Positions 6,494 through 57,170 of a stretch of DNA of 58,877 nucleotides are shown in pieces (within the stretch, counting starts at the first letter, position 1; every line of letters starts with the position of its first letter). The stretch covers positions 78,443-137,319 of the forward strand of contig JASKKH010000001.1 in the NCBI GenBank assembly GCA_030154265.1, written 5' to 3'. The position numbers and the translations under genes are program-made. Source of the stretch: Clostridia bacterium. Its GTDB lineage: Bacteria > Bacillota > DSM-521 > Neomoorellales > Neomoorellaceae. The notes under the pieces were generated by a model. It made no database searches. It was not told the origin of the DNA and saw nothing but the letters and a program-made list of their open reading frames with translations.

Positions 6494-7201
6494 TTATTTC
6501 CTACAACCCTCCGCTGTCAACTCCTTTAAAAGTTTCTGGATGGCCTTTTTCTCTATTCTTGATACATACGAACGTGAAATGCCCATTTTCCGTGCTATAT
6601 CACGCTGTGTCCTACGTAAACCATGCAGTAAACCATAACGCATCTCTATGACCTTTTTTTCTCGAGAATTAAGGATATTAATCTTTTCTCTTATTCGCTG
6701 TCTGTCAAAAGAATTTTCAACAGCCTCTGCTACATCATGATCTGACCCTAAAATATCTATTAGAGTGATTTCATTGCCCTCTCTATCAACCCCAATTGGA
6801 TCATAAAGGAATACCTCTCCCCGATTTTTTTTCATAGCTCGTAGATGCATAAGTATTTCATTTTCAATGCAGCGGGCGGCATAAGTTGCTAATTTAGTCT
6901 TTTTATCACTATTATAAGTATTGATGGCTTTAATAAGTCCAACAGTACCGATACTAATTAGATCTTCATTATCCTCTCCTGTATTTTCAAATTTCTTTGT
7001 AATATGAGCTACCAAACGCAAGTTATGTTCTATTAGAATATCACGAGCCTTAGGATCTCCCTTTTGTAATAGTTTTAAATACTTTTTCTCTTCTTTTTCA
7101 CTTAGGGGCTGAGGAAAAGCATTATTGGTGATGTAAGACAAAAGAAGACTAATACCTTTTAAAACCGACAAGGCAACTACAGTAAATAATCCTGCTCCCA
7201 T
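6494..7201 (-). CDS. sigK: Sporulation sigma factor sigma-K
   Basis: This is the late mother-cell sigma factor that directs coat and spore maturation genes. Region 2 contains [12 protein letters not shown] and [14 protein letters not shown], and region 4 contains [14 protein letters not shown] followed by a helix-turn-helix. A hydrophobic N-terminal pro-segment (about 20 residues, ending before [13 protein letters not shown]) suggests it is made as pro-sigma-K and cleaved at a membrane. The 235-residue frame is continuous, so there is no skin-type interrupting element. ATG 7201 follows GGGAGGTATAGG. It is strong evidence that the organism forms spores. Confidence 0.95.
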
Positions 7202-10154: not shown

Positions 10155-11207
10155 CTATTTCACTTCTATTTTTCCAGTACCCTCTATAACTTCACCAATA
10201 ACACTAGCTTCTGTAACTCCCCGTTTCTCTAAAGTCAGCATAAGTTTTTCGGTTTTGGCCTCTTCAACAGCTATTAATAATCCCCCTGAAGTTTGTGGAT
10301 CATAGAAAACACTTGTCAGGGACTTATCTATACCTGTATTTACATTTACTTCTCCTTCAGTATAAGACTGATTTCTATAGGCTCCTCCAGGTATTAATCC
10401 CATAGATGCAAATTCCAAAGAATAAGGTAAAACAGGAACATCTTTAGCATAGATAATCAAATTAACATGACTCCCCTGAGCCATCTCCAGGCCATGGCCT
10501 AAGAGGCCAAAACCCGTTATATCTGTACAACTATGTACGCCAATCTCAATCATAGCTGCAGCTGCTTCCTTATTTAGAGTTGCCATTAATCGGCTAACCT
10601 CTACCTCTATATCATGAGTTGCCATCTCAGCTTTTATGGCAGTACATATAATTCCTGTACCCAGAGGTTTAGTTAAAATTAACTTATCTCCAGGCTTAGC
10701 TCCGGAATTAGTGATTACTTTTTTAGGGTTAACCGTACCAGTTACTGCTAATCCATATTTAGGCTCATTATCTTCAATGCTATGTCCACCAACAAGAACA
10801 GCACCTGCCTCTAAAACCTTATCGGCCCCACCACGTAAAATATCACTAAGAATAGTAATATCAAGTTTTTTACTTGGAAAAGCAACTATATTCATAGCTG
10901 TTACCGGATGCCCACCCATAGCATAGACATCACTTAAAGCATTTGCTGCTGCAATTTGGCCAAAAAGATAAGGATTATCAACAATAGGGGTAAAAAAGTC
11001 AACTGTTTGGATAATTGCCATATTTTCTGAAAGTTGATAAACACCAGCATCATCAACAGTATTCATGCCAACCAGTAAATTATCATCTTGTATTCTTGGT
11101 AAGCAATGTAGAACTTGATTAAGGATCCCCGGACCCATTTTTGCTGCTCATCCTGATGCGCTTGACATTTGAGTTAGTCGGCAAACCTTTTCTTTAAAAT
11201 CTGACAT
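10155..11207 (-). CDS. selD: Selenide, water dikinase, selenocysteine-containing
   Basis: SelD makes selenophosphate from selenide and ATP, the selenium donor for selenocysteine and selenouridine. The gene must be read through an in-frame TGA at 11148-11150. The true start is ATG 11207, after GGGGGGAGGG, and gives MSDFKEKVCRLTQ..., then SASG-Sec-AAKMGPG. Selenocysteine is residue 20, at the position where the E. coli enzyme has catalytic Cys17, and the essential lysine follows as residue 23. The ATP-binding DDAGVYQL and GGHSIEDNEPKYGLAVTG motifs are present. The total of 350 residues fits the family. Reading only from the ATG after the TGA would lose the active site. Confidence 0.95.
11115..11150 (-). 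promoter_or_regulatory. Selenocysteine UGA codon with candidate bacterial SECIS
   Basis: The in-frame TGA (11148-11150) is followed within 12 bases by a GC-rich segment, GGGTCCGGGGATCC, that can form a short stem (GGGTC/GATCC) with a small G-containing loop. Bacterial SECIS elements lie in this position, just 3' of the UGA. The exact fold needs prediction. Confidence 0.55.
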
Positions 11208-11305
11208 TTTTTCCCTCCCCCCATTAATTATATTTTCAATACCTATATTAAGATTTCCTTGTATTATTATCTTATCTCAAACATATTAGTTTAATAATAA
11301 AAAAT

Positions 11306-26682: not shown

Positions 26683-26702
26683 TTGGCACCCCCAAAAAAG
26701 TA

Positions 26703-26887
26703 AAAACCCCACAAATGCCGTGCTCGCCGTGTGTTTTAAGAACCTGCTCTCTGCAGGTGGGTACCTCCCCGAACATCTTTTACTTCCCCTGCACTAACCA
26801 AAGCCAGTTATATTGGGGCCTGTAAGCAATGCACGGAGGTCAGGTTCCCAAAGTGTTGGTGTTGGCTCAAAACTCCACGGCTATACA
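26703..26887 (-). ncRNA. ssrS: 6S RNA (BsrA type)
   Basis: The gap between aspS and tcdA holds a non-coding segment that folds as a long rod. Complementary pairs are GCCGTG/CACGGC at the base, then GGGAACC/GGTACCC, then ACCTCC/GGAGGT, closed by a TGCA-containing apex. It ends in GGGGTTTTTACTTTTTT. The same location, between aspS and yrvM/tcdA, holds bsrA in B. subtilis. 6S RNA mimics an open promoter and binds sigma-A RNA polymerase. A TACAAT -10 lies just upstream (26898-26893). End points are estimates of about ten bases. Confidence 0.8.
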
Positions 26888-26965
26888 CAAACATTGTAGG
26901 GTAAGCTTCAAACACTAACCTCTGTCAAGGATGATATTATCATATAGTTTCTGGTTTTTCAAGTC

Positions 26966-28780
26966 CTAGGATTTTCCATTGGTGTTTATATTTGGTTCTT
27001 TTCTTATTGTTCTTAGGTGTAATTCTTGTAATTGCTCTGCTGCCACTTTCGATGGTGCCTCTGTCATCAAACAGGTACCACTCTGGGTTTTAGGGAAAGG
27101 AATACAATCGCGAATAGTTTCCCTCCCAGACATTAGCATTATCATACGGTCTATACCAAAGGCTATTCCCCCATGGGGAGGTGTACCATATTCAAAAGCC
27201 TCTAGCAAAAAGCCAAATTTCGAGCGGGCACTTTCCGGAGAAAACCCAAGTAAATCGAACATTTTCTCCTGAATATCCCGGCGATGAATTCTAATACTAC
27301 CCCCACCCAGTTCAACACCGTTTAAAACAAGGTCATAGGCCAGGGCTCTAACTTTTTGAGGTTCTTTATCTAAAAGCTCCCAATCCTCTTCCATAGGCAT
27401 GGTAAAAGGATGGTGTACTGCTACATAACGTTTTTCTTCTGGACTATATTCTAACAAAGGAAAGTCTGTAACCCAGGTAAAGGCAAACTCCTCAGGATCA
27501 TAAAGCTTTAACCGTTTGCCCATTTCCAGGCGTAATACTCCAAGAGCAGTAGCAGCTACTTCTTCTTTGTCAGCTACAAAGAGAAGGAGATCTCCACTTT
27601 TACCTCCCAATTGATTTACTAAGCTATCAAGTTCTTCTGAGGTAAAGAACTTAGCAATGGGAGAACGGATACCATCTTCGTTAATTGCCATCCAGGCTAA
27701 ACCTTTGGCTCCGTAGACAGCAGCCAGCTTGGTTAATTCATCTATTTCCCGACGTGAAAAATTACCACATCCAGGCACACAAATACCGCGTACTACTCCA
27801 CCTTCAGCTACTGCATTTGCAAAGACTTTAAACCCTGAGTTTGCTACCACTTCAGAAACATCTGTTATTTCCATACCAAAACGGATATCGGGTTTATCTG
27901 TACCATAGCGTTCCATAGCTTCTTTATATGTTAATCGCTGAATAGGTAAAGATATTTTTTTACCTAAAACTTCTTGGAAAATATAAGCCATCATCTCTTC
28001 TACTAAGCTCAAGACATCTTCTCTCTGAACAAATGACATTTCCATATCAAGCTGGGTGAATTCGGGTTGCCGATCAGCCCGTAAATCTTCATCACGGAAA
28101 CAACGAACAATCTGATAATACCGTTCCGTCCCAGCAACCATTAAAATCTGTTTAAACAGTTGCGGAGACTGGGGTAAAGCAAAAAATTCCCCTGGACGAA
28201 GCCGACTTGGAACGAGGAAGTCCCTTGCCCCTTCTGGTGTACTACGGGTAAGCATAGGTGTTTCCATTTCCCAAAAGCCATGCTTATCCAGGAAATCCCT
28301 GATAGCTTTTGTTGTCCGGTAACGTAAGTATAAAATGTGCTGCATTTCCGGACGGCGTAAATCTAAATAGCGGTGACGTAAACGTAATGCTTCATCAACA
28401 TCAATATCATCTTCAATATAAAAAGGCGGTGTTTTTGCTTTATTAAGTATTCGTAATTCATGGACGATAATTTCGATGGATCCGGTAGACAATTTAGGGT
28501 TTGCTGTCCCCTCCGGTCGTAACCTTACCTTACCGCTAACTGCTAATACGTATTCATTACGGACTTCTTCAGCTTTTTTAAAAGTTGAACCAGATTCCGG
28601 ATCACAGACAACTTGAATTAAACCTGAACGATCACGTAAATCAATAAAAATTAAGCCACCATGATCCCGGCGCCTATGCACCCAACCCATAATGGTTACT
28701 TCCTGACCAACCTCATTAGCTGTTAATTCACCGCAGCCATGGCTGCGGCTTAGGCCAGCTATACTCTCAACCACTACCAT
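26966..28780 (-). CDS. aspS: Aspartate-tRNA ligase (bacterial type, possibly non-discriminating)
   Basis: The N-terminal OB domain (GWVHRRRDHGGLIFIDLRDRSG in two parts) binds the tRNA anticodon. The class II core has FRDEDLRADRQPEFTQLD (motif 2), and GGIAFGIDRMIML is motif 3. A GAD insertion is present. The total is 604 residues from ATG 28780. I chose that ATG because AAAAGGAG is five bases upstream and it overlaps the hisS stop by seven bases, so the two are coupled. Whether it also charges tRNA-Asn cannot be told from sequence. Confidence 0.96.
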   Translation of the reverse strand: MVVVESIAGLSRSHGCGELTANEVGQEVTIMGWVHRRRDHGGLIFIDLRDRSGLIQVVCDPESGSTFKKAEEVRNEYVLAVSGKVRLRPEGTANPKLSTGSIEIIVHELRILNKAKTPPFYIEDDIDVDEALRLRHRYLDLRRPEMQHILYLRYRTTKAIRDFLDKHGFWEMETPMLTRSTPEGARDFLVPSRLRPGEFFALPQSPQLFKQILMVAGTERYYQIVRCFRDEDLRADRQPEFTQLDMEMSFVQREDVLSLVEEMMAYIFQEVLGKKISLPIQRLTYKEAMERYGTDKPDIRFGMEITDVSEVVANSGFKVFANAVAEGGVVRGICVPGCGNFSRREIDELTKLAAVYGAKGLAWMAINEDGIRSPIAKFFTSEELDSLVNQLGGKSGDLLLFVADKEEVAATALGVLRLEMGKRLKLYDPEEFAFTWVTDFPLLEYSPEEKRYVAVHHPFTMPMEEDWELLDKEPQKVRALAYDLVLNGVELGGGSIRIHRRDIQEKMFDLLGFSPESARSKFGFLLEAFEYGTPPHGGIAFGIDRMIMLMSGRETIRDCIPFPKTQSGTCLMTEAPSKVAAEQLQELHLRTIRKEPNINTNGKS

Positions 28781-30045
28781 CCACTCTCCTTTTTCTGCCG
28801 ACAAAAGTCAACTACTTCTTCCAGGGGTACTTCCTCTTGACTACCAGTTTCTAAATCTCGTACTAAAACTTTACCCCTTTTGAACTCTTCCTCACCAAGA
28901 ATTAACGCTATCCTAGCCTTACAGCGGTTAGCGTATTTCATTTGCGCTTTTAGACTGCGTTCAAGATAATCTTTATCAGCCTTAAAACCTGCTGCCCTAA
29001 GATTGGCAAGTAACCGCACAGCTTCCTTATTTAAGTCTGCTCCAACAGTTACGACCATAACTTCAATTTTATTAATTTGTGGTAAATCCTTACCTTGGGC
29101 TTGAAGGGTTAAAAGTACACGTTCTAATCCCAGCCCAAAACCGATCCCCGGTACAGATTTACCACCCAAATTCTCTACTAATCCATCATAACGGCCACCA
29201 CCGCCAATGGAACTCTGGGCACCTATTCCCTTAACCATAATCTCAAAAGCCGTTTTAGTATAATAATCTAAACCCCGAACCAAATGCTCGTCCAATATAA
29301 AATCAATACCTAAGGTTTCTAAATAACCCTGAACCCGTTTAAAATGATCCGAGCAGTCCTCACAAAGGCTTAAAACTACCGTTGGTGCCTTAGCTACAAT
29401 CTCCTGACAGACTGAACTTTTACAATCAAAAATCCTTAAAGGATTACGTTCAAACCGACCTTGGCATGTGTTACATAATTCCTTAAGATACGGTTCTAAA
29501 TAACCCTTTAGCTCTTCTCGATACTTAGCCCGACATTCAGGACAACCAACACTGTTTAAATGCAATTCTAAATCTTCAAGTCCCAGGGCTCTATAAAAAT
29601 TCATAGCCAGAGCAATAACCTCTGCATCAAGACCCGGATCCATAGAACCAAAGGCTTCAACCCCAAACTGGTGAAACTGCCTTAAACGGCCAGCCTGGGG
29701 TCGTCCATAACGAAACATAGGGCCTAAGTAAAAAAGCTTTACCGGTAAACCCTGAGCATCCATTCTGTGTTCCAAAAAAGCCCGTACCACTGAAGCCGTT
29801 CCCTCTGGCCTCAATGTGAGTTCACGACCACCCCGATCTTTAAATGTATACATCTCTTTCTCGACGATATCGGTTGTATCCCCAACACCACGATTAAAAA
29901 TTTCCGTGTGTTCAAAAATCGGGGTGCGAATTTCACGGTATCCGTAAAGGTAACTTAATTCTCTTGCAGTAGCTTCTAAAAGATACCAACCACTAATATT
30001 TTCTGGCAAAATATCTTCTGTACCACGTGGGCGAGTTATCAACAT
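28774..30045 (-). CDS. hisS: Histidine-tRNA ligase
   Basis: The class II core has RPRGTEDILPE at the N-terminus, LRPEGTASVVRAFLEH (motif 2 region) and FGVEAFGS. LVRGLDYYTKTAFEI is the histidine-specific motif, and SIGGGGRYDGLVE and GIGFGLGLERVLL complete motif 3. A cysteine-rich part, CPECRAKYRE and CNTCQGRF, is typical of the clostridial form. I choose ATG 30045, after GGAGG, over an ATG twelve bases upstream. It is coupled to aspS by an overlap and follows the hydrolase gene. Confidence 0.97.
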   Translation of the reverse strand: MLITRPRGTEDILPENISGWYLLEATARELSYLYGYREIRTPIFEHTEIFNRGVGDTTDIVEKEMYTFKDRGGRELTLRPEGTASVVRAFLEHRMDAQGLPVKLFYLGPMFRYGRPQAGRLRQFHQFGVEAFGSMDPGLDAEVIALAMNFYRALGLEDLELHLNSVGCPECRAKYREELKGYLEPYLKELCNTCQGRFERNPLRIFDCKSSVCQEIVAKAPTVVLSLCEDCSDHFKRVQGYLETLGIDFILDEHLVRGLDYYTKTAFEIMVKGIGAQSSIGGGGRYDGLVENLGGKSVPGIGFGLGLERVLLTLQAQGKDLPQINKIEVMVVTVGADLNKEAVRLLANLRAAGFKADKDYLERSLKAQMKYANRCKARIALILGEEEFKRGKVLVRDLETGSQEEVPLEEVVDFCRQKKESGW

Positions 30046-33416: not shown

Positions 33417-36185
33417 TCACCTCCCACCTTTAAGCTGCTGCCATAAATCCCTGGCTAATTGTTCTTCAGTTAAAAGCTGTCGGTAACGTCTAGAATCATA
33501 TAAATTCTGCTTGCTGGTTACCTTCACAGGATGAACAAATAAACCTTTATCTCTTTTTAGTACCTTTACTAATCCCAGTTCTTCTAAAATAGCCAGGTAA
33601 CATCGTTGATGATAACTTTTCTTATTAAATATGTAAAGTCCACCGTTAACGTTAACTTTTTGGCATAGTTCACGATAAAAAGCTGCTATTTTCCGGCGTA
33701 AATCTTGTTCCGACTTTTTCTTATTTTCATGTTTTATGTAAACCTCAGGCAATCTGTCTGTTAGGGGTAGTGCCAATTCTACCTCCTCTTGGCTCCCAGG
33801 TAGATAATTAAAAATAACTACATCAGCAGGAAAAAACCAAGGTGGTAGTTCCCTCCTGGCTATCATTACCTGAAGATGACCGGATAAAGCACTTTCCCGT
33901 ACTAAAAGAAAATGAAGATAATCCACATATGTATCTACTGTTATACTTACCCCAGGTAACTTTTCCCTTAACAAAGAAGCTATTTGCCTCGCCTTAAAAC
34001 CGTCAGCTTCATATAAAAGAATTCGTTTTCCTTGAGATGCGAGTTCAGTCAATAAAGGCATCATCTCAGTAAATGATTGCCACATATGAGTATTATTGAC
34101 AGTTTGTAATAGTTCTCCTTCATCTTTTTTTGAGTTCTTGTCTATAGTCACTAGCGGTGAGTATACATAAGGACTGCCTTCACCTTCTTGTTCTAAATAA
34201 AAGGGACTGCAACTAATTAGGCCTGTCTTTTTGCTTAAAATCCTTTTTTCTCTACTAGCTCCCACCCAAGGACCTAAAGGTGTAAGGGATATTGCTTCTT
34301 TAAAATTTCGTTTTATACCGTAATAAAGCTGACGTACAGCCGTGCTTGTGGCTAATATAAAATTACAAGGTGAATTTTTCCCTAGAAGTTTTTCTTGCAG
34401 TTGTCGAGACCAAGTATAAGCTAATTCAGTTTCCCCGGTCGCTGCCACTAACTGTTCTCCATGCATGTTAGATATTTCAATTTCATTAGAGGAAGGTCTT
34501 ATATCAGTTAATAAGAGCTGAAGCTCTTCATTGCCATTATAAATGTTTTTATCTAGATAAAAAACAACATCAACCGGTTTGTTAACTGTTAAGCCTGGAG
34601 GCAAATGCTGGTTAAAACCAATGCCCACCAATTCCCTTCCTTGCCCTTCCAAGCTCAACTTTAAATGATTATGGTCTTTACCGACCTGAGTAGCTTTTTT
34701 TATGTAAACACGCCTGGATATCAAAAGGGGGCGAGGGTTTCCTTCACCAAAGGGAGTTAGTTGTTCTAACTCCCTAAATAAAGGCCAATCCAACTGGCTG
34801 AATAAAACTTCTGCTTCGGGCATGAGTTTTTGGGGAATGGGTTCTTTACCTAGAACCTCCTCTATAGCTTTATTAAAAGCAACTTGAAAATGGGGTATTT
34901 CACTTGCCGAAATTTCCAACCCAGCTGCTTGGGCATGTCCACCGAATCCTAACAGATGGTCTTTGCACCTAGTTAATACCTCATGTAGATTGACCTCTGG
35001 AATACTCCGCCCTGATCCGCGCCCTGCATCCCCTTCCAGGGCAATTACAATAACGGGACAATTATATTTTTCCATCAGACGTGTAGCAACAATACCGATA
35101 ACTCCTGGGTGCCACCCTTGAGCTGCTAACACTAAACCCCGATTACCTTGGGCAATTGCTGCAGATGCCATTGCTTCCGCTTCGGATATAATATTATCCT
35201 GTAGAAGTTTGCGGGTAGTATTTTCTTTCTGTAAATGTTGGGCTAATTCAAGAGCTTGTTGAGGAGAATCAGTAATTAAAAGCTCTAAAGCAGTACTAGC
35301 CTCACCCAAACGTCCGGCAGCATTTAAACGGGGGATAATGGTAAAAGAAATATCCTTGACATCCCATTCCTCAGACTTTAATCCAGCAATTTCAGCCAAA
35401 GCTTTTATCCCCGGTCTGTTCCCTGAAGTCAAAATTGGTAACCCCAATTGAACTAGTAACCGATTTTCACCTAGAAGGGGAACGGAATCTGCAATAGTAG
35501 CCAACGCAACTAAATCAAGGAGCCAATCAGCTTCTATCCCATTTTTAGAAGATAATCCATAAAGACTTGCAAGGGCCTGGGCCAGTTTAAAAGCAACCCC
35601 TGCCCCACACAGTGGTGGTAGAGATGAGCCTAGTAAAGGATTAATAATTGCCGTTGCTTCTGGTAATGCCTCCCCTGGACGGTGGTGATCTGTGATTATT
35701 AAATCTAGCCCCTTTTGTTTAGCATAGATAGCCTCTTCTATGGAAGTAATTCCACAATCGACTGTTACTACCAAGGAACAGCCTTTTTCTTTAGCTATAT
35801 TTAAGCCTGCCTTGTTCAGCCCGTACCCCTCTGTCAAGCGATTGGGCAGGTAAAATTCAGTCTTAACCCCCAAACGACTAAAAATCTCTATCATAATTGC
35901 AGTAGCTGTTAAACCATCAACATCATAATCACCATAAATTAAAACTTTCTCCTGGGTCTCCACTGCTTTAATTAGTCGTTCAAGTGCTTCTTTTAACCCT
36001 GCAAATTCTTCAGGTTGTATAAGCTTTGCTGAATCAGGTGATAAAAAAGCCCTGGCTGCTGCCGCCGTTTTTATACCACGATTTATCAGCACCTGAGCTG
36101 TTATAGGTGAGATATTTAATTCTCTGGCTAGATTGAGCCTTTCCGTCATGGAAACCGGGGGTAACTCCCAAACAACCGACGTCAA
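33417..36185 (-). CDS. recJ: Single-strand DNA exonuclease RecJ
   Basis: RecJ degrades single-stranded DNA 5' to 3' in repair. The DHH motifs YGDYDVDGLTA (near residue 82), VDCGITS and ITDHHRPGE are present, and FGGHAQAAGLEIS marks the DHHA1 part near residue 395. After the OB region (to about 570) a long C-terminal extension of about 350 residues follows, as in other Gram-positive members (922 total). The start is TTG 36185, sharing bases with the lapA stop (TTGA). It lies directly upstream of relA. Confidence 0.95.
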   Translation of the reverse strand: MTSVVWELPPVSMTERLNLARELNISPITAQVLINRGIKTAAAARAFLSPDSAKLIQPEEFAGLKEALERLIKAVETQEKVLIYGDYDVDGLTATAIMIEIFSRLGVKTEFYLPNRLTEGYGLNKAGLNIAKEKGCSLVVTVDCGITSIEEAIYAKQKGLDLIITDHHRPGEALPEATAIINPLLGSSLPPLCGAGVAFKLAQALASLYGLSSKNGIEADWLLDLVALATIADSVPLLGENRLLVQLGLPILTSGNRPGIKALAEIAGLKSEEWDVKDISFTIIPRLNAAGRLGEASTALELLITDSPQQALELAQHLQKENTTRKLLQDNIISEAEAMASAAIAQGNRGLVLAAQGWHPGVIGIVATRLMEKYNCPVIVIALEGDAGRGSGRSIPEVNLHEVLTRCKDHLLGFGGHAQAAGLEISASEIPHFQVAFNKAIEEVLGKEPIPQKLMPEAEVLFSQLDWPLFRELEQLTPFGEGNPRPLLISRRVYIKKATQVGKDHNHLKLSLEGQGRELVGIGFNQHLPPGLTVNKPVDVVFYLDKNIYNGNEELQLLLTDIRPSSNEIEISNMHGEQLVAATGETELAYTWSRQLQEKLLGKNSPCNFILATSTAVRQLYYGIKRNFKEAISLTPLGPWVGASREKRILSKKTGLISCSPFYLEQEGEGSPYVYSPLVTIDKNSKKDEGELLQTVNNTHMWQSFTEMMPLLTELASQGKRILLYEADGFKARQIASLLREKLPGVSITVDTYVDYLHFLLVRESALSGHLQVMIARRELPPWFFPADVVIFNYLPGSQEEVELALPLTDRLPEVYIKHENKKKSEQDLRRKIAAFYRELCQKVNVNGGLYIFNKKSYHQRCYLAILEELGLVKVLKRDKGLFVHPVKVTSKQNLYDSRRYRQLLTEEQLARDLWQQLKGGR

Positions 36186-51487: not shown

Positions 51488-52450
51488 CTAAACTTCTAAA
51501 CCCTCTTCTTTAATCATTTGAATATCTTCAGAAATTTTATTTCCTACCGTAGTTAAGTAATTACCTACTAAAGCCGCATTAACACCTGCTTTAAGACCTT
51601 GTCTTTGCAACTCTCCCAAAGCACTACGTCCCCCAGCATAGCGAATAAAGCTATCTGGGATGATAAAGCGGAAAACAGCCATGGTTTTAAGTATTTCTTG
51701 GGGTTCAAGGGGTTTTAAGTTCTCCAATGGAGTACCTTTAATGGGATTAAGAATATTAATGGGGATAGATTTTACCCCTAGCTCTTTTATTTCAAAAGCC
51801 ATATTAATCCTATCTTCAAAACTTTCACCCATACCTATAATTCCACCACAGCATATGTCAAGACCTGCTCTAAGAACATTCTTTATAGTATCTATCCGTT
51901 CCTGATAAGTGTGGGTAGTACATATCTTTGGGAAATAATCCCGACTTGTTTCTACATTGTGATGGTACATAGTTACGCCTACTTCTTTAAGCTGTAAAGC
52001 CTGCTCATAACTGATAATCCCCAACGAAGCACATAACTTAAGATTTGTTTCCTTCCTTAAAACTTTATAAATAGTTAATACTTTTTCCCAGTCTTTTTGT
52101 AATATACCTTTACCACTAGTAACCAGAGAAAAACGATGGGCTCCACTAGCCTCGTTTTCTTTAGCTAATTTCAATGCTTTTTCTACATCTACCAAAGGGT
52201 ATACTTCTACACCCGTTGAATAGTGGGCAGACTGAGCACAAAACTTACAGTTTTCAGAACATTTACCTGATTTGGCATTCATAATAGTACATAAATCAAC
52301 TTTATTACCTGTAAACTTCTCACGAATTCTATTAGCTGCCCCAAAGAGTTCTTCCAGGTCCTCGGTTTGATATAATTCTATTGCTTCTGAAAAAGTTATC
52401 TCTTTTCCAGCCATTACTTTGTCTTCTAATTTTTTTATGAGATGGGACAC
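51488..52450 (-). CDS. bioB: Biotin synthase
   Basis: BioB inserts sulfur into dethiobiotin using radical SAM chemistry. The radical SAM cysteine motif is in GKCSENCKFCAQSAHYS near residues 63-75, and YHHNVETSRDYF and GGIIGMGES follow as usual. RYAGGRSALG holds the arginine that supports the second, [2Fe-2S], cluster. The length of 320 is normal. ATG 52450 follows AAAGGAGC. It is the last gene of the minus-strand bio operon. Confidence 0.98.
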   Translation of the reverse strand: MSHLIKKLEDKVMAGKEITFSEAIELYQTEDLEELFGAANRIREKFTGNKVDLCTIMNAKSGKCSENCKFCAQSAHYSTGVEVYPLVDVEKALKLAKENEASGAHRFSLVTSGKGILQKDWEKVLTIYKVLRKETNLKLCASLGIISYEQALQLKEVGVTMYHHNVETSRDYFPKICTTHTYQERIDTIKNVLRAGLDICCGGIIGMGESFEDRINMAFEIKELGVKSIPINILNPIKGTPLENLKPLEPQEILKTMAVFRFIIPDSFIRYAGGRSALGELQRQGLKAGVNAALVGNYLTTVGNKISEDIQMIKEEGLEV

Positions 52451-52472
52451 AAAAAGCAGCTCCTTTCCCGAA

Positions 52473-53636
52473 TTATATTATGTTTAATCTCTTCCCTATT
52501 TGGACTATTTTTGTTAAGGCATAGTTCAAATCATCTTGACTATGGGTTGCCATTAAACTAAGCCTTAGTCGGCTCGTCCCCGGGGGTACTGTGGGCGGCC
52601 TGATGGCTGGGATATAAATACCCTCTTCCAGTAGCTGGTTACTGAATTGTAAAGCTTTTTCAGAGTCACCAACTACAATAGGTATGATAGGAGTTTGACT
52701 GTCTAAAGTTTTAAACCCCGCATCGTGAAGTTTATTCTGGAGCCAATTAGCATTGTTGAGCAATACTCGTCTGGCTTCAGGTTCTCTCTCTACGATTTCT
52801 ATAGCCTTTATGGCTACAGCAATAGTGGCAGGTGCTAAAGCCGTAGTAAAGATAAAACTTCTAGCCTTGTTTCTTAAGTAGTCAATAAGATATTGTTTAC
52901 CCGCAATAAAACCGCCTTCACTGGCTAAAGCTTTGCTCAAAGTTCCCATTTGTAAATCTATTTTGTCTTTTAACCCAAAGTAATCACCTGTACCTGCTCC
53001 CTTAGGACCTAAAACCCCGGTAGCATGGGCATCATCTACCATGGTTAGAGCAGAAAATTCCTCGGCGATTTTTACAATATCATCTAAAGGAGCAATATCT
53101 CCATCCATACTAAAGACACCATCGGTAACAATCAAAATGGGGTTGCCTTGAAATTCTTTTACCTTCTTGTATAGGTCGTCCATGTCACAGTGCTTATAAA
53201 CAACTATTTTGGCACCGCTTAGTCTACAGCCATCAATAATGCTGGCATGATTCAATTCATCACTGAAAACCACCCAGGATTTATCTGCTATACCGGCAAT
53301 GGCCCCAACGTTTGTCATATATCCTGTATTGAAAACTATTGAAGCTTCAGTACCTTTAAAACGGGCTATTTTTTGTTCTAATTCTTTATGTAATTGATAG
53401 CTTCCGGTTGTGAGCCTTGAGCCTCCTGACCCCACCCCATATTTTTCAATAGCTCTGATAGCAGCTGCCTTAAGACGATTATCATCACAAAGACCCAAGT
53501 AGCTATTAGAGGCCATTAACAAAACTTTACGACCATCAATGACTGTATGGGGCTTCTGGGGAGCACTTAAATACCTCATTTCTCTGTATAAACCTTGTTT
53601 TTTTATTTCTTCTAAATAAGCAATAATTTTTTCCAT
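52473..53636 (-). CDS. bioF: 8-amino-7-oxononanoate synthase
   Basis: BioF condenses pimeloyl-CoA with alanine, using pyridoxal phosphate. Motifs are SNSYLGLCDD, GSGGSRLTTGSYQLH, MVDDAHATGVLG, the PLP lysine in QMGTLSKALASEGGF and RLRLSLMATHSQDDL. I choose ATG 53636, behind GGAGATTGAG, rather than an in-frame start at 53660. It follows bioW by four bases and precedes bioB by 22 bases. It takes the pimeloyl-CoA made by bioW. Confidence 0.95.
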   Translation of the reverse strand: MEKIIAYLEEIKKQGLYREMRYLSAPQKPHTVIDGRKVLLMASNSYLGLCDDNRLKAAAIRAIEKYGVGSGGSRLTTGSYQLHKELEQKIARFKGTEASIVFNTGYMTNVGAIAGIADKSWVVFSDELNHASIIDGCRLSGAKIVVYKHCDMDDLYKKVKEFQGNPILIVTDGVFSMDGDIAPLDDIVKIAEEFSALTMVDDAHATGVLGPKGAGTGDYFGLKDKIDLQMGTLSKALASEGGFIAGKQYLIDYLRNKARSFIFTTALAPATIAVAIKAIEIVEREPEARRVLLNNANWLQNKLHDAGFKTLDSQTPIIPIVVGDSEKALQFSNQLLEEGIYIPAIRPPTVPPGTSRLRLSLMATHSQDDLNYALTKIVQIGKRLNII

Positions 53637-53640
53637 AATC

Positions 53641-54456
53641 TCAATCTCCAAAATAATCACTTAATGTGAAATTTCCCTGGTAGGGTTTGATTTCATTAAT
53701 GATAGTTATTTGGTTTTCCAGCCAGTTTAGACAATCTTCCACTGTGGCCTTAGTTGAATCAAAGCAAAAAATCCGACCGCCTTTATCCACACCAAACGGT
53801 TTTAAATGAGTAAACCTGATATAACCTAATTTTTCGGAAGCCATATATCCTGCAGTATAATCAGGATCATCAGACCAGCATATCTCTGCAATAATCCCTG
53901 GTGCTCTAGCCACTTTACTGGCTAAAGCCACCGCCTCCTTTACATGATTATTGTTAATCCCTTCTTTCTCCAACATGGAATTTAACCGGGGGTATAAATC
54001 GTAAGCCCAGTCCATACCAGTTGCCCTAACCCCCCGATTAAGGTCAGGTTCTAAACGCTTTAACGTATGTATATCAACTAACATAGCTCCTCGAAGAGGG
54101 GGAGCCTCCATAAGAAGATTTAAAAGAGCCTCTGCTTTTTGAGAAGACAGGCCTATTAACTTCAGGCATTGTATCACGCCTTTTCGTCCCTCTAGATAGT
54201 CCTTTACTTCCAAAGTTGTTATAGGTAAAGAGGAAATGTATTTAACCTCTGAAGTCCTCACTTCTTCCAATGAGATATTAATAAAATCAGCCTTCCCCTT
54301 ACTATGATTTAAGGAACGGTCCAAAAGCTTGGCAATTGACCAAAGAATATCTCCTTCCGGAATAATCCTCTCAGCTCCGGAGATGTGTTTCCCGCCTTTT
54401 TTGTGGCTACCGCCCTGGGCAGCCCTCATCTTAACGTTATATAATCTTTCTTTCAT
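53641..54456 (-). CDS. bioW: 6-carboxyhexanoate-CoA ligase (pimeloyl-CoA synthetase)
   Basis: BioW activates free pimelate to pimeloyl-CoA with ATP. The N-terminus, KERLYNVKMRAAQGG, and GKHISGAERII match the family. The central RGVRATGMDWAYDLYPRL and VARAPGIIAEICWSDDPDYTAGYMA motifs and the C-terminal LGYIRFTHLKPFG and RIFCFDS motifs agree. ATG 54456 is chosen because GGGGAG precedes it and the family begins so. It overlaps the membrane protein gene, so the two are coupled. It commits the pathway to pimelate as precursor. Confidence 0.95.
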   Translation of the reverse strand: MKERLYNVKMRAAQGGSHKKGGKHISGAERIIPEGDILWSIAKLLDRSLNHSKGKADFINISLEEVRTSEVKYISSLPITTLEVKDYLEGRKGVIQCLKLIGLSSQKAEALLNLLMEAPPLRGAMLVDIHTLKRLEPDLNRGVRATGMDWAYDLYPRLNSMLEKEGINNNHVKEAVALASKVARAPGIIAEICWSDDPDYTAGYMASEKLGYIRFTHLKPFGVDKGGRIFCFDSTKATVEDCLNWLENQITIINEIKPYQGNFTLSDYFGD

Positions 54457-54937
54457 AGCTAAAAATCTCCCCAAGATACTGTTGTGATGCCCTTTTCAGC
54501 TTTTTAGTCAAAGGCCAGGCAGCCAAAGCTGTAAAAATCATTCCCGGCAGGCTGGCCAGAAGTAAAGGGATTAAACCTTTACCAATTAAAAACCATACCA
54601 CTAACCGGGCAGCTGCCGAGCCTAAGGGCCCGGCAATAGAGACTACCCAAAACCTTGGCCCAAAAAGAGCGATAACTCCACCTGCTACGATCCTAAAAGT
54701 CATGGCAATAAGTACCCCAATAATGGTTTGGGTCCCTAAAAGAAGACCAAGAATACTAGCCACTATTCCTGCACATATGTATCTAGTAAAACCAAATACA
54801 GCCGCAATAGCCACAGCTAGAGGGGCAGATAGCTGAAACTCTGTGCCAGGAAAAGGGCTGGGAATTTTAAAAGCACCAGAGACAACTAAGATTACAGCCA
54901 ACAGGCTAGTTAGGGAAAGTTCATTAACTTTTTTCAA
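54437..54937 (-). CDS. Membrane protein of the bio operon, ECF S-component-like
   Basis: I do not recognise a named family with certainty. The 166 residues form about five membrane helices. The N-terminal region, LAVILVVSGAFKIPSPFPG followed by EFQLSAPLAVAIA, resembles the start of ECF transporter S components such as BioY. It overlaps bioW by about 20 bases and is the first gene after the operator, so it may import pimelate or another biotin precursor. No energising ECF ATPase is present in the window, which such components may share. Confidence 0.6.
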   Translation of the reverse strand: MKKVNELSLTSLLAVILVVSGAFKIPSPFPGTEFQLSAPLAVAIAAVFGFTRYICAGIVASILGLLLGTQTIIGVLIAMTFRIVAGGVIALFGPRFWVVSIAGPLGSAAARLVVWFLIGKGLIPLLLASLPGMIFTALAAWPLTKKLKRASQQYLGEIFSYERKII

Positions 54938-54951
54938 TGTCTTTGCTCCTA

Positions 54952-54984
54952 TTGTTTACTTACTAGTAATGTCACAATTAACAA
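54952..54984. promoter_or_regulatory. BirA operator for the bioW operon
   Basis: Half-sites TTGTTTACT and AATTAACAA are separated by exactly 15 bases, giving the 9-N15-9 architecture of BirA sites. Seven of nine base pairs are complementary between the arms. It lies at the start of the minus-strand operon, about 15 bases from the first gene. BirA itself is not in the window. Confidence 0.75.
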
Positions 54985-55013
54985 TTGCCAATAAAAAGTA
55001 TATTGTTTATACT
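54985..55013 (+). promoter_or_regulatory. bioD promoter
   Basis: TTGCCA (54985-54990) and TATACT (55008-55013) are 17 bases apart, a good sigma-A promoter for bioD-bioA. The predicted transcript start is near 55020, at the left edge of the BirA site that follows, so BirA binding would block it. Confidence 0.65.
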
Positions 55014-55018
55014 TATAT

Positions 55019-55051
55019 TAGTCAACACATAAATTACAGATAGGTTGACAA
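55019..55051. promoter_or_regulatory. BirA operator for the bioD operon
   Basis: Half-sites TAGTCAACA and GGTTGACAA are separated by exactly 15 bases, again 9-N15-9. Seven of nine pairs are complementary. It begins at the predicted bioD transcript start. Confidence 0.75.
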
Positions 55052-55073
55052 TAAGTTTGTGGGGAGGCACTTT

Positions 55074-55784
55074 ATGGCTAAGGGTTACTTTGTCGTAGGA
55101 ACAGATACAGGCGTTGGCAAAACTGTGGTTACAGCAGGTTTAGTCGGCGCATTGAGGGCTAAAGGAATTAATGCTGCCCCTTTTAAACCGGTACAAAGTG
55201 GGGCAATGCGAACCCAAGAGGGTTTAAAGGCTTTAGACGTAGAGTTTTATAAAAAAGTAGCAGATTTGCCTGAAGATAAATTTAATACCTATACTTTGGA
55301 ACCTGCTTTATCCCCCAGTTTAGCAGCAGAAATCTCCAAAGTAACTATTGAACCTGAACCCATATTAGAAGATTTCAACACCTTGAGTAAAAATTACGAA
55401 CTAATACTGGTGGAAGGTGCCGGAGGCCTATATGTTCCCCTCCAAGGAACAACTTATTTGTTACCGGATTTAATCAAAACCCTTAATCTACCTCTGATTA
55501 TAGTTTCCAGACCCAATTTAGGCACAATCAATCATACTGTAATGACCATTAAATGTGCAGAGCACCTGGAAATTGCAGTTAAAGGTGTAATTTATAACGG
55601 TTATGACGAAAAAACTGCTACTCCGTCTGAAAAGACAAATCCAGAAATCATTGAAAAAATTACTGGTGTACCTTGTCTAGGTGTTATTCCTAAAGGACGG
55701 GACATTGATGTTGATGCCGGAAAGACAAGCAACTGTTTAGAGTTAATCCAAGAACATGTTAATTTTGACTTGTTATTAAGTTAA
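55074..55784 (+). CDS. bioD: Dethiobiotin synthetase
   Basis: BioD closes the ureido ring of dethiobiotin from DAPA, bicarbonate and ATP. The Walker A motif is GTDTGVGKTVVTAGLVGAL at the N-terminus; the substrate lysine is in PFKPVQSGA and the VEGAGGLYVPL motif follows. ATG 55074 has GGGGAGG just upstream, so a longer frame from 55059 is not used. bioA follows 36 bases downstream. Confidence 0.97.
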   Translation: MAKGYFVVGTDTGVGKTVVTAGLVGALRAKGINAAPFKPVQSGAMRTQEGLKALDVEFYKKVADLPEDKFNTYTLEPALSPSLAAEISKVTIEPEPILEDFNTLSKNYELILVEGAGGLYVPLQGTTYLLPDLIKTLNLPLIIVSRPNLGTINHTVMTIKCAEHLEIAVKGVIYNGYDEKTATPSEKTNPEIIEKITGVPCLGVIPKGRDIDVDAGKTSNCLELIQEHVNFDLLLS

Positions 55785-55820
55785 TATCCATAAAACATAA
55801 TCTTAAAAGGTGGGATAAAG

Positions 55821-57170
55821 GTGAATATATGGCAAGAAAAAGATTTACAGTACATTTGGCACCCCTGCTCTCAGATGAAGGACTATGAAGATTTTCCACC
55901 CATTGTAATAGAAAGAGGAGAAGGCCCCTATTTATATGATATTGAAGGAAATTCATACTTGGATGCCGTCTCTTCCTGGTGGGTAAATCTCTTTGGACAT
56001 AGTAACAAAAGAATTAATGAGGCCATTAGAAAACAATGTGAGCAATTAGAACATGTTATTTTCGCCAATTTCTCCCATAAACCTGCTATAGAATTGGCGG
56101 AAAGAATTGTAAATATTACTCCAGAAGGATTAAACAAAGTCTTTTTCTCCGATAACGGCTCTTCGGCCGTAGAGGTAGCTCTTAAGCTAAGCTATCAATA
56201 TCATCAACAGCTTGGCCATGAGAAAAAGACTAAATTCGTTTCCATAACTGATGCCTATCACGGCGAAACTCTGGGAGCCCTGGCTGTAGGTGATCTTGAC
56301 TTATACAGCCTAATATTCGAAAAATTGATGATGAGTACATATAGGACAAAAGGTCCCGATTGTTACCGCTGTCCTTATGGGCAAACTAGAGAAAACTGCT
56401 CTGCCGAATGTTTTGAGGGTATGGAAAAGCTCTTTGAAGAACACCATGAAGAAATTTGTGGAGTCATTATTGAGCCCCTAATCCAATGTGCAGCCGGTAT
56501 GAAAATTTACCCACCTATCTACTTAAAAAAATTAAGGGATTTATGTACCGAATACAAGGTTCATTTTATTGCTGACGAAATCGCTGTAGGTTTTGGACGA
56601 ACAGGGAAAATGTTTGCCTGTGAACATGCAGGCATCAGTCCAGATATCATGTGTGTATCTAAAGGACTAACAGCCGGGTACTTGCCCTTAGCCTTAACCT
56701 TGGTAACTGATGAAATTTATGAAGCCTTTTATGATGATTATACGAAATTGAAGGCCTTCATGCACAGTCACAGCTATACCGGTAACCCCATTACCTGTTC
56801 CGTTGCCAATGAAACCTTGAATATTTTCCGGGATGAAAACGTATTGGAAAAAAATCAAGAAAAATCTCGCTTTATTAATCAATTGGTAAGAGAAAAAGCT
56901 AAAAACCACCCATATATTGGTGAATTCCGACAGCTAGGAATGGTTGGAGCTCTGGAATTGGTAGAAGATAAGAAAACAAAAAAAGGCTTTGATTGGAAAA
57001 AACGAGTGGGATACAACATTTATAGAAAAGCTGTACCCAAAGGCGTACTTCTTCGTCCCCTGGGCAACGTCATTTATTTCATGCCACCTTATGTTGTAGA
57101 AGAAAAAGACATTGAACTAATGGTAAATACGGCTTTTGACTGCATCAATGAATATTTCGGCATAAACTAA
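55821..57170 (+). CDS. bioA: Adenosylmethionine-8-amino-7-oxononanoate aminotransferase
   Basis: BioA makes 7,8-diaminopelargonate from KAPA with SAM as amino donor. The protein has IWHPCSQMKDYEDFPPI at the N-terminus, SSWWVNLFGH, and the phosphate loop SDNGSSAVEVALKL. The PLP aspartate is in FIADEIAVGFGRTGKMF, the lysine is in CVSKGLTAGYLPLA, and HSHSYTGNPITCSVA follows. The 449-residue length is normal. GTG 55821 follows AAAGGTGGG. It completes the pathway with bioW, bioF, bioD and bioB. Confidence 0.97.
   Translation: MNIWQEKDLQYIWHPCSQMKDYEDFPPIVIERGEGPYLYDIEGNSYLDAVSSWWVNLFGHSNKRINEAIRKQCEQLEHVIFANFSHKPAIELAERIVNITPEGLNKVFFSDNGSSAVEVALKLSYQYHQQLGHEKKTKFVSITDAYHGETLGALAVGDLDLYSLIFEKLMMSTYRTKGPDCYRCPYGQTRENCSAECFEGMEKLFEEHHEEICGVIIEPLIQCAAGMKIYPPIYLKKLRDLCTEYKVHFIADEIAVGFGRTGKMFACEHAGISPDIMCVSKGLTAGYLPLALTLVTDEIYEAFYDDYTKLKAFMHSHSYTGNPITCSVANETLNIFRDENVLEKNQEKSRFINQLVREKAKNHPYIGEFRQLGMVGALELVEDKKTKKGFDWKKRVGYNIYRKAVPKGVLLRPLGNVIYFMPPYVVEEKDIELMVNTAFDCINEYFGIN

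Follow-up and report, generated by a model that had tools for sequence, protein, structure and literature searches.

A Neomoorellaceae selD gene with an in-frame UGA at the catalytic position, very probably encoding a selenocysteine-containing selenophosphate synthetase

In prokaryotes, SelD containing selenocysteine (Sec) has been described as the second most widespread selenoprotein. Such Sec-SelDs are listed for Moorella thermoacetica, Carboxydothermus, Desulfotomaculum and others (PMC1794560; PMC13188914), and HdrA, FrhD and glutaredoxin are further selenoproteins listed for Moorella. In the published model of the bacterial SECIS element (bSECIS), a stem of 4–16 bp carries a loop of 3–9 nt with a G within its first two positions, at a distance of 16–37 nt from the UGA and with a minimum free energy of -7.5 or lower (PMC13188914). 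The selD gene analysed here, from a Clostridia bacterium of the Neomoorellaceae, resembles the known bacterial Sec-SelDs (PMC1794560; PMC13188914) in its protein family, in the UGA at the catalytic Cys position, in a SECIS (here putative) directly downstream and in the presence of the Sec machinery and a Sec-containing FdhA in the same genome; sequence divergence is the only difference found. The arrangement is genuine but long known and ordinary, being common to nearly all selenium-using relatives. Cys-SelD is represented by the solved chain 3u0o, which we take to be E. coli SelD. It belongs to the same family and likewise has the conserved Lys three positions further on, whereas its active site carries Cys in place of the Sec of the present protein and it is thus made without the Sec machinery.

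The window, i.e., the whole stretch of 58,877 nucleotides that was analysed, carries selD (selenide water dikinase / selenophosphate synthetase) at 10155..11207 on the minus strand, which codes for 350 aa with UGA as Sec. The frame runs from the ATG at 11207 to a TAG ending at 10155, and translation with TGA as U leaves codon 20 (TGA, 11148..11150, minus strand) as its sole interruption. The N-terminus of the read-through protein is MSDFKEKVCRLTQMSSASG-U-AAKMGPG..., with MSSASG directly before U; translation of 11207..10155 on the minus strand thus reproduces what the preliminary description had reported, namely an ATG at 11207, 19 codons, TGA and AAKMGPG. The read-through SelD matches TIGR00476 (selD) over its full length with 395.3 bits (cut-off 125), residues 10–318 corresponding to profile positions 1–310 of 311. 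In an alignment with the solved SelD chains 3u0o and 2yye, U20 falls on their active-site Cys, presumably the catalytic Cys in both, as expected from the earlier placement of the TGA at the Cys or Sec active site. In the motif U20-A-A-K23, aligned to the solved chains, Sec is followed by Lys three residues on. The strong ribosome site noted earlier corresponds to the purine-rich stretch GGGGGGAGGG (11213..11222, minus strand), 5 nt upstream of the ATG; a promoter scan gave a result no better than chance. Among frames across the window that are bridged over one TGA, selD is the only plausible selenoprotein.

SelD and selA were surveyed in 101 genomes, comprising the host's own and others from its family, order and phylum. 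Within the family, 17 selD genes were found, each with a single in-frame TGA that is the same in all, the other SelDs of the family being 61–72 % identical to that of the window. Beyond the family, the TGA is found in nearly all full-length SelDs of the 101-genome set. The match in G022 starts past the TGA, which is present when the sequence is read further upstream. The exceptions, read by hand, are the Cys-SelD of G088 (C13, L138) and, in G024, which has several SelD copies, one of these (C13, L140). Both adjoin yedF-like genes and belong to the SelD family, but carry Cys at the site, unlike the SelD of the window. Since Cys homologs exist at the UGA position, the in-frame UGA sits at a Cys position. 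In G024, the Cys-SelD occurs alongside two Sec-SelD copies, as if the two forms served different selenium uses. Two strong Sec-SelD matches per genome are found in G018, G019, G021, G023, G024, G032, G066, G067 and G099.

The host genome is a draft in 70 contigs that is 99.9 % complete. The preliminary description had supposed that the organism probably makes selenoproteins and had pointed to selA, selB, selC and other UGA-containing genes as the place to look; all are present, a gene for formate dehydrogenase being the second UGA gene. selB (402.7 bits) and selA (618.5 bits) lie side by side on contig C59, and a single tRNA-Sec gene (selC) with the loop CUUCAAA, i.e., anticodon UCA, is found on contig C42 by the Rfam model (73.2 bits); ARAGORN missed it. 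A second RF01852 match over the gathering score, at C59:45816, is an ordinary tRNA-Ser(tga). The formate dehydrogenase alpha subunit FdhA on contig C39 (889 bits) has one in-frame TGA in the context CART-U-HAPTVAG, the known Sec site of this enzyme. Downstream of this TGA lies a hairpin whose GGUCU loop we take to resemble the SECIS loop of E. coli fdhF. As for other uses of selenium, ybbB (selenouridine) and yqeB (selenium cofactor) gave no match over the cut-off in the genome, and genes of the HesB type and for NiFeSe hydrogenase were not found in it with controls that worked. Glycine reductase GrdB had no match in the genome, but none in any control genome either, so that this negative does not speak for its absence.

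Directly past the UGA of selD, a putative bSECIS apical hairpin, GGGUC-CGGG-GAUCC, can be drawn at 11123..11136 on the minus strand. It consists of a 5-bp stem with one G-U pair and a CGGG loop that lies 16 nt after the UGA and has G at its second position. With a fold of -7.6 kcal/mol over 44 nt, it falls within the published bSECIS constraints (PMC13188914), the energy limit being met only just. In the 17 family orthologs, only 3 of 75 conserved fourfold-degenerate columns are codon-invariant and all three are inside the hairpin: the consecutive codons GGT, CCG and GGG, which form its 5' arm and loop. In the 3' arm, the selD of the window has ATC instead of ACC, so that a G-U pair takes the place of a G-C pair and the stem is preserved. 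The hairpin thus appears to be under selection beyond the protein sequence, a conclusion that draws on codon conservation and not on folding energy. Indeed, the energy is not exceptional against shuffles (z -0.13), and comparison with synonymous recoding across the family gives no clear signal (mean z -0.43). The SECIS fold that the preliminary description had proposed to test therefore stands with respect to the bSECIS constraints and the codons locked in 17 of 17 orthologs, but not as an unusually stable structure. Beyond the family, pairing counts at fixed columns are mixed, probably owing to a shift in the hairpin register. An Rfam search of the window and the TGA region returned no SECIS family, a negative of little weight given the diversity of bSECIS elements.

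Could the UGA be something other than a Sec codon? The draft state of the genome (70 contigs), together with the fact that this site otherwise usually carries Cys (e.g., G024 C13, G088), might suggest that a Cys codon (TGT or TGC) was misread in sequencing or assembly, an explanation that would have undone the earlier reading. However, the TGA is missing from only a few full-length SelDs of the 101 genomes, the synonymous codons right after it are invariant and the Sec machinery is complete; because all 17 SelDs of the family keep the TGA, an error can be considered excluded, its probability being vanishingly small. That UGA is decoded as a different residue (Trp or Cys), through a reassigned code or suppression, has nothing specific in its favour and is very improbable in view of the complete SelA/SelB/tRNA-Sec set and of other genes that end normally at TGA, e.g., recJ (33417-33419), just before relA.

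A different view would place the start of translation downstream of the UGA. With the standard code, the longest ORF in selD that begins with ATG comprises 327 aa (10155-11138) and lacks the U/K active site, so that gene callers stopping at TGA would indeed lose the active site, as the preliminary description had warned. This is the ORF that a caller would report, and its ATG (11136..11138, minus strand) could in principle yield a SelD-like protein without active site, the upstream part being a relict. However, this codon is TTA in the relative L030 and thus does not serve as a start throughout the relatives, so that ATG 11138 is probably no real start. Moreover, both the TGA and the residues upstream of it are conserved and the strong ribosome site precedes ATG 11207, which leaves an internal start with only a very slight chance of being correct.

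The UGA at the catalytic position of SelD is thus almost certainly read as selenocysteine in this host. We hold it to be very likely that selD encodes a Sec-containing selenophosphate synthetase in which Sec is put at residue 20 via SelB and the downstream hairpin, both the insertion and the catalysis being deduced from sequence. SelB carrying Sec-tRNA(Sec) would bind the putative hairpin just past the UGA (11150-11148) and thereby direct Sec to position 20. Together with Lys23 close by, Sec20 would then help to convert selenide into selenophosphate at the expense of ATP, and SelA would use the selenophosphate to form Sec-tRNA(Sec). The latter would serve formate dehydrogenase and SelD itself, such that production of SelD would depend on its own product. 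For annotation, this means that standard gene callers would report an enzyme of 327 aa from which the SelD active site has been cut away.

The SelD cut-off is passed by only one gene in the host genome, that of the window. The next match to the profile, on contig C56 (82 bits), is a protein of the AIR-synthase type (536 aa), and its match does not include the N-terminal Sec/Cys region. Since the sole SelD of a 99.9 % complete genome contains Sec, the claim that SelD needs selenium for its own synthesis holds at the level of the gene inventory: SelD would need Sec, and Sec SelD. We infer that this self-dependence may also act as a regulatory feedback. This is a further clear example in which the activation of selenium would hinge on what it produces. 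The genome holds no SelD of the Cys type to fall back on and would suit a laboratory study of the way in which the loop restarts after selenium starvation. Given that SelD occurs here only as a selenoprotein and that genes for selenouridine or a selenium cofactor do not reach their cut-offs, Sec decoding might even be a bistable, self-sustaining switch, an idea we consider unlikely; if it were true, long selenium loss could lead to loss of SelD, with no restart without leaky UGA decoding.

Across the survey, Sec-SelD is present in 76 of the 101 genomes, and selA in all 76. Two genomes needed hand reading for this count. In G004, selA is present only as a fragment at a contig end, the same contig carrying selB; G087 (94 % complete) has a full selA (6e-180; contig C74, L139) and no SelD was found in it, possibly because SelD is missing from the assembly or selA is used otherwise. 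The remaining 24 genomes have neither Sec-SelD nor selA over the cut-off. They include G088, which presumably uses selenium otherwise since it has a Cys-SelD without selA. A Fisher test of Sec-SelD against selA, run on the counts as they stood prior to the two corrections by hand, yields p ~8e-20, a value that is indicative only since the genomes are related.

Other features were observed in the window. The gene for the sporulation sigma factor SigK (6494-7201, minus strand) is uninterrupted, which suggests a spore former. A 6S RNA (83.5 bits) lies at 26702-26905 on the minus strand, near aspS (26966-28804, same strand), and the biotin genes bioB, bioF-like and bioA are found together in one region at 51488-57170.
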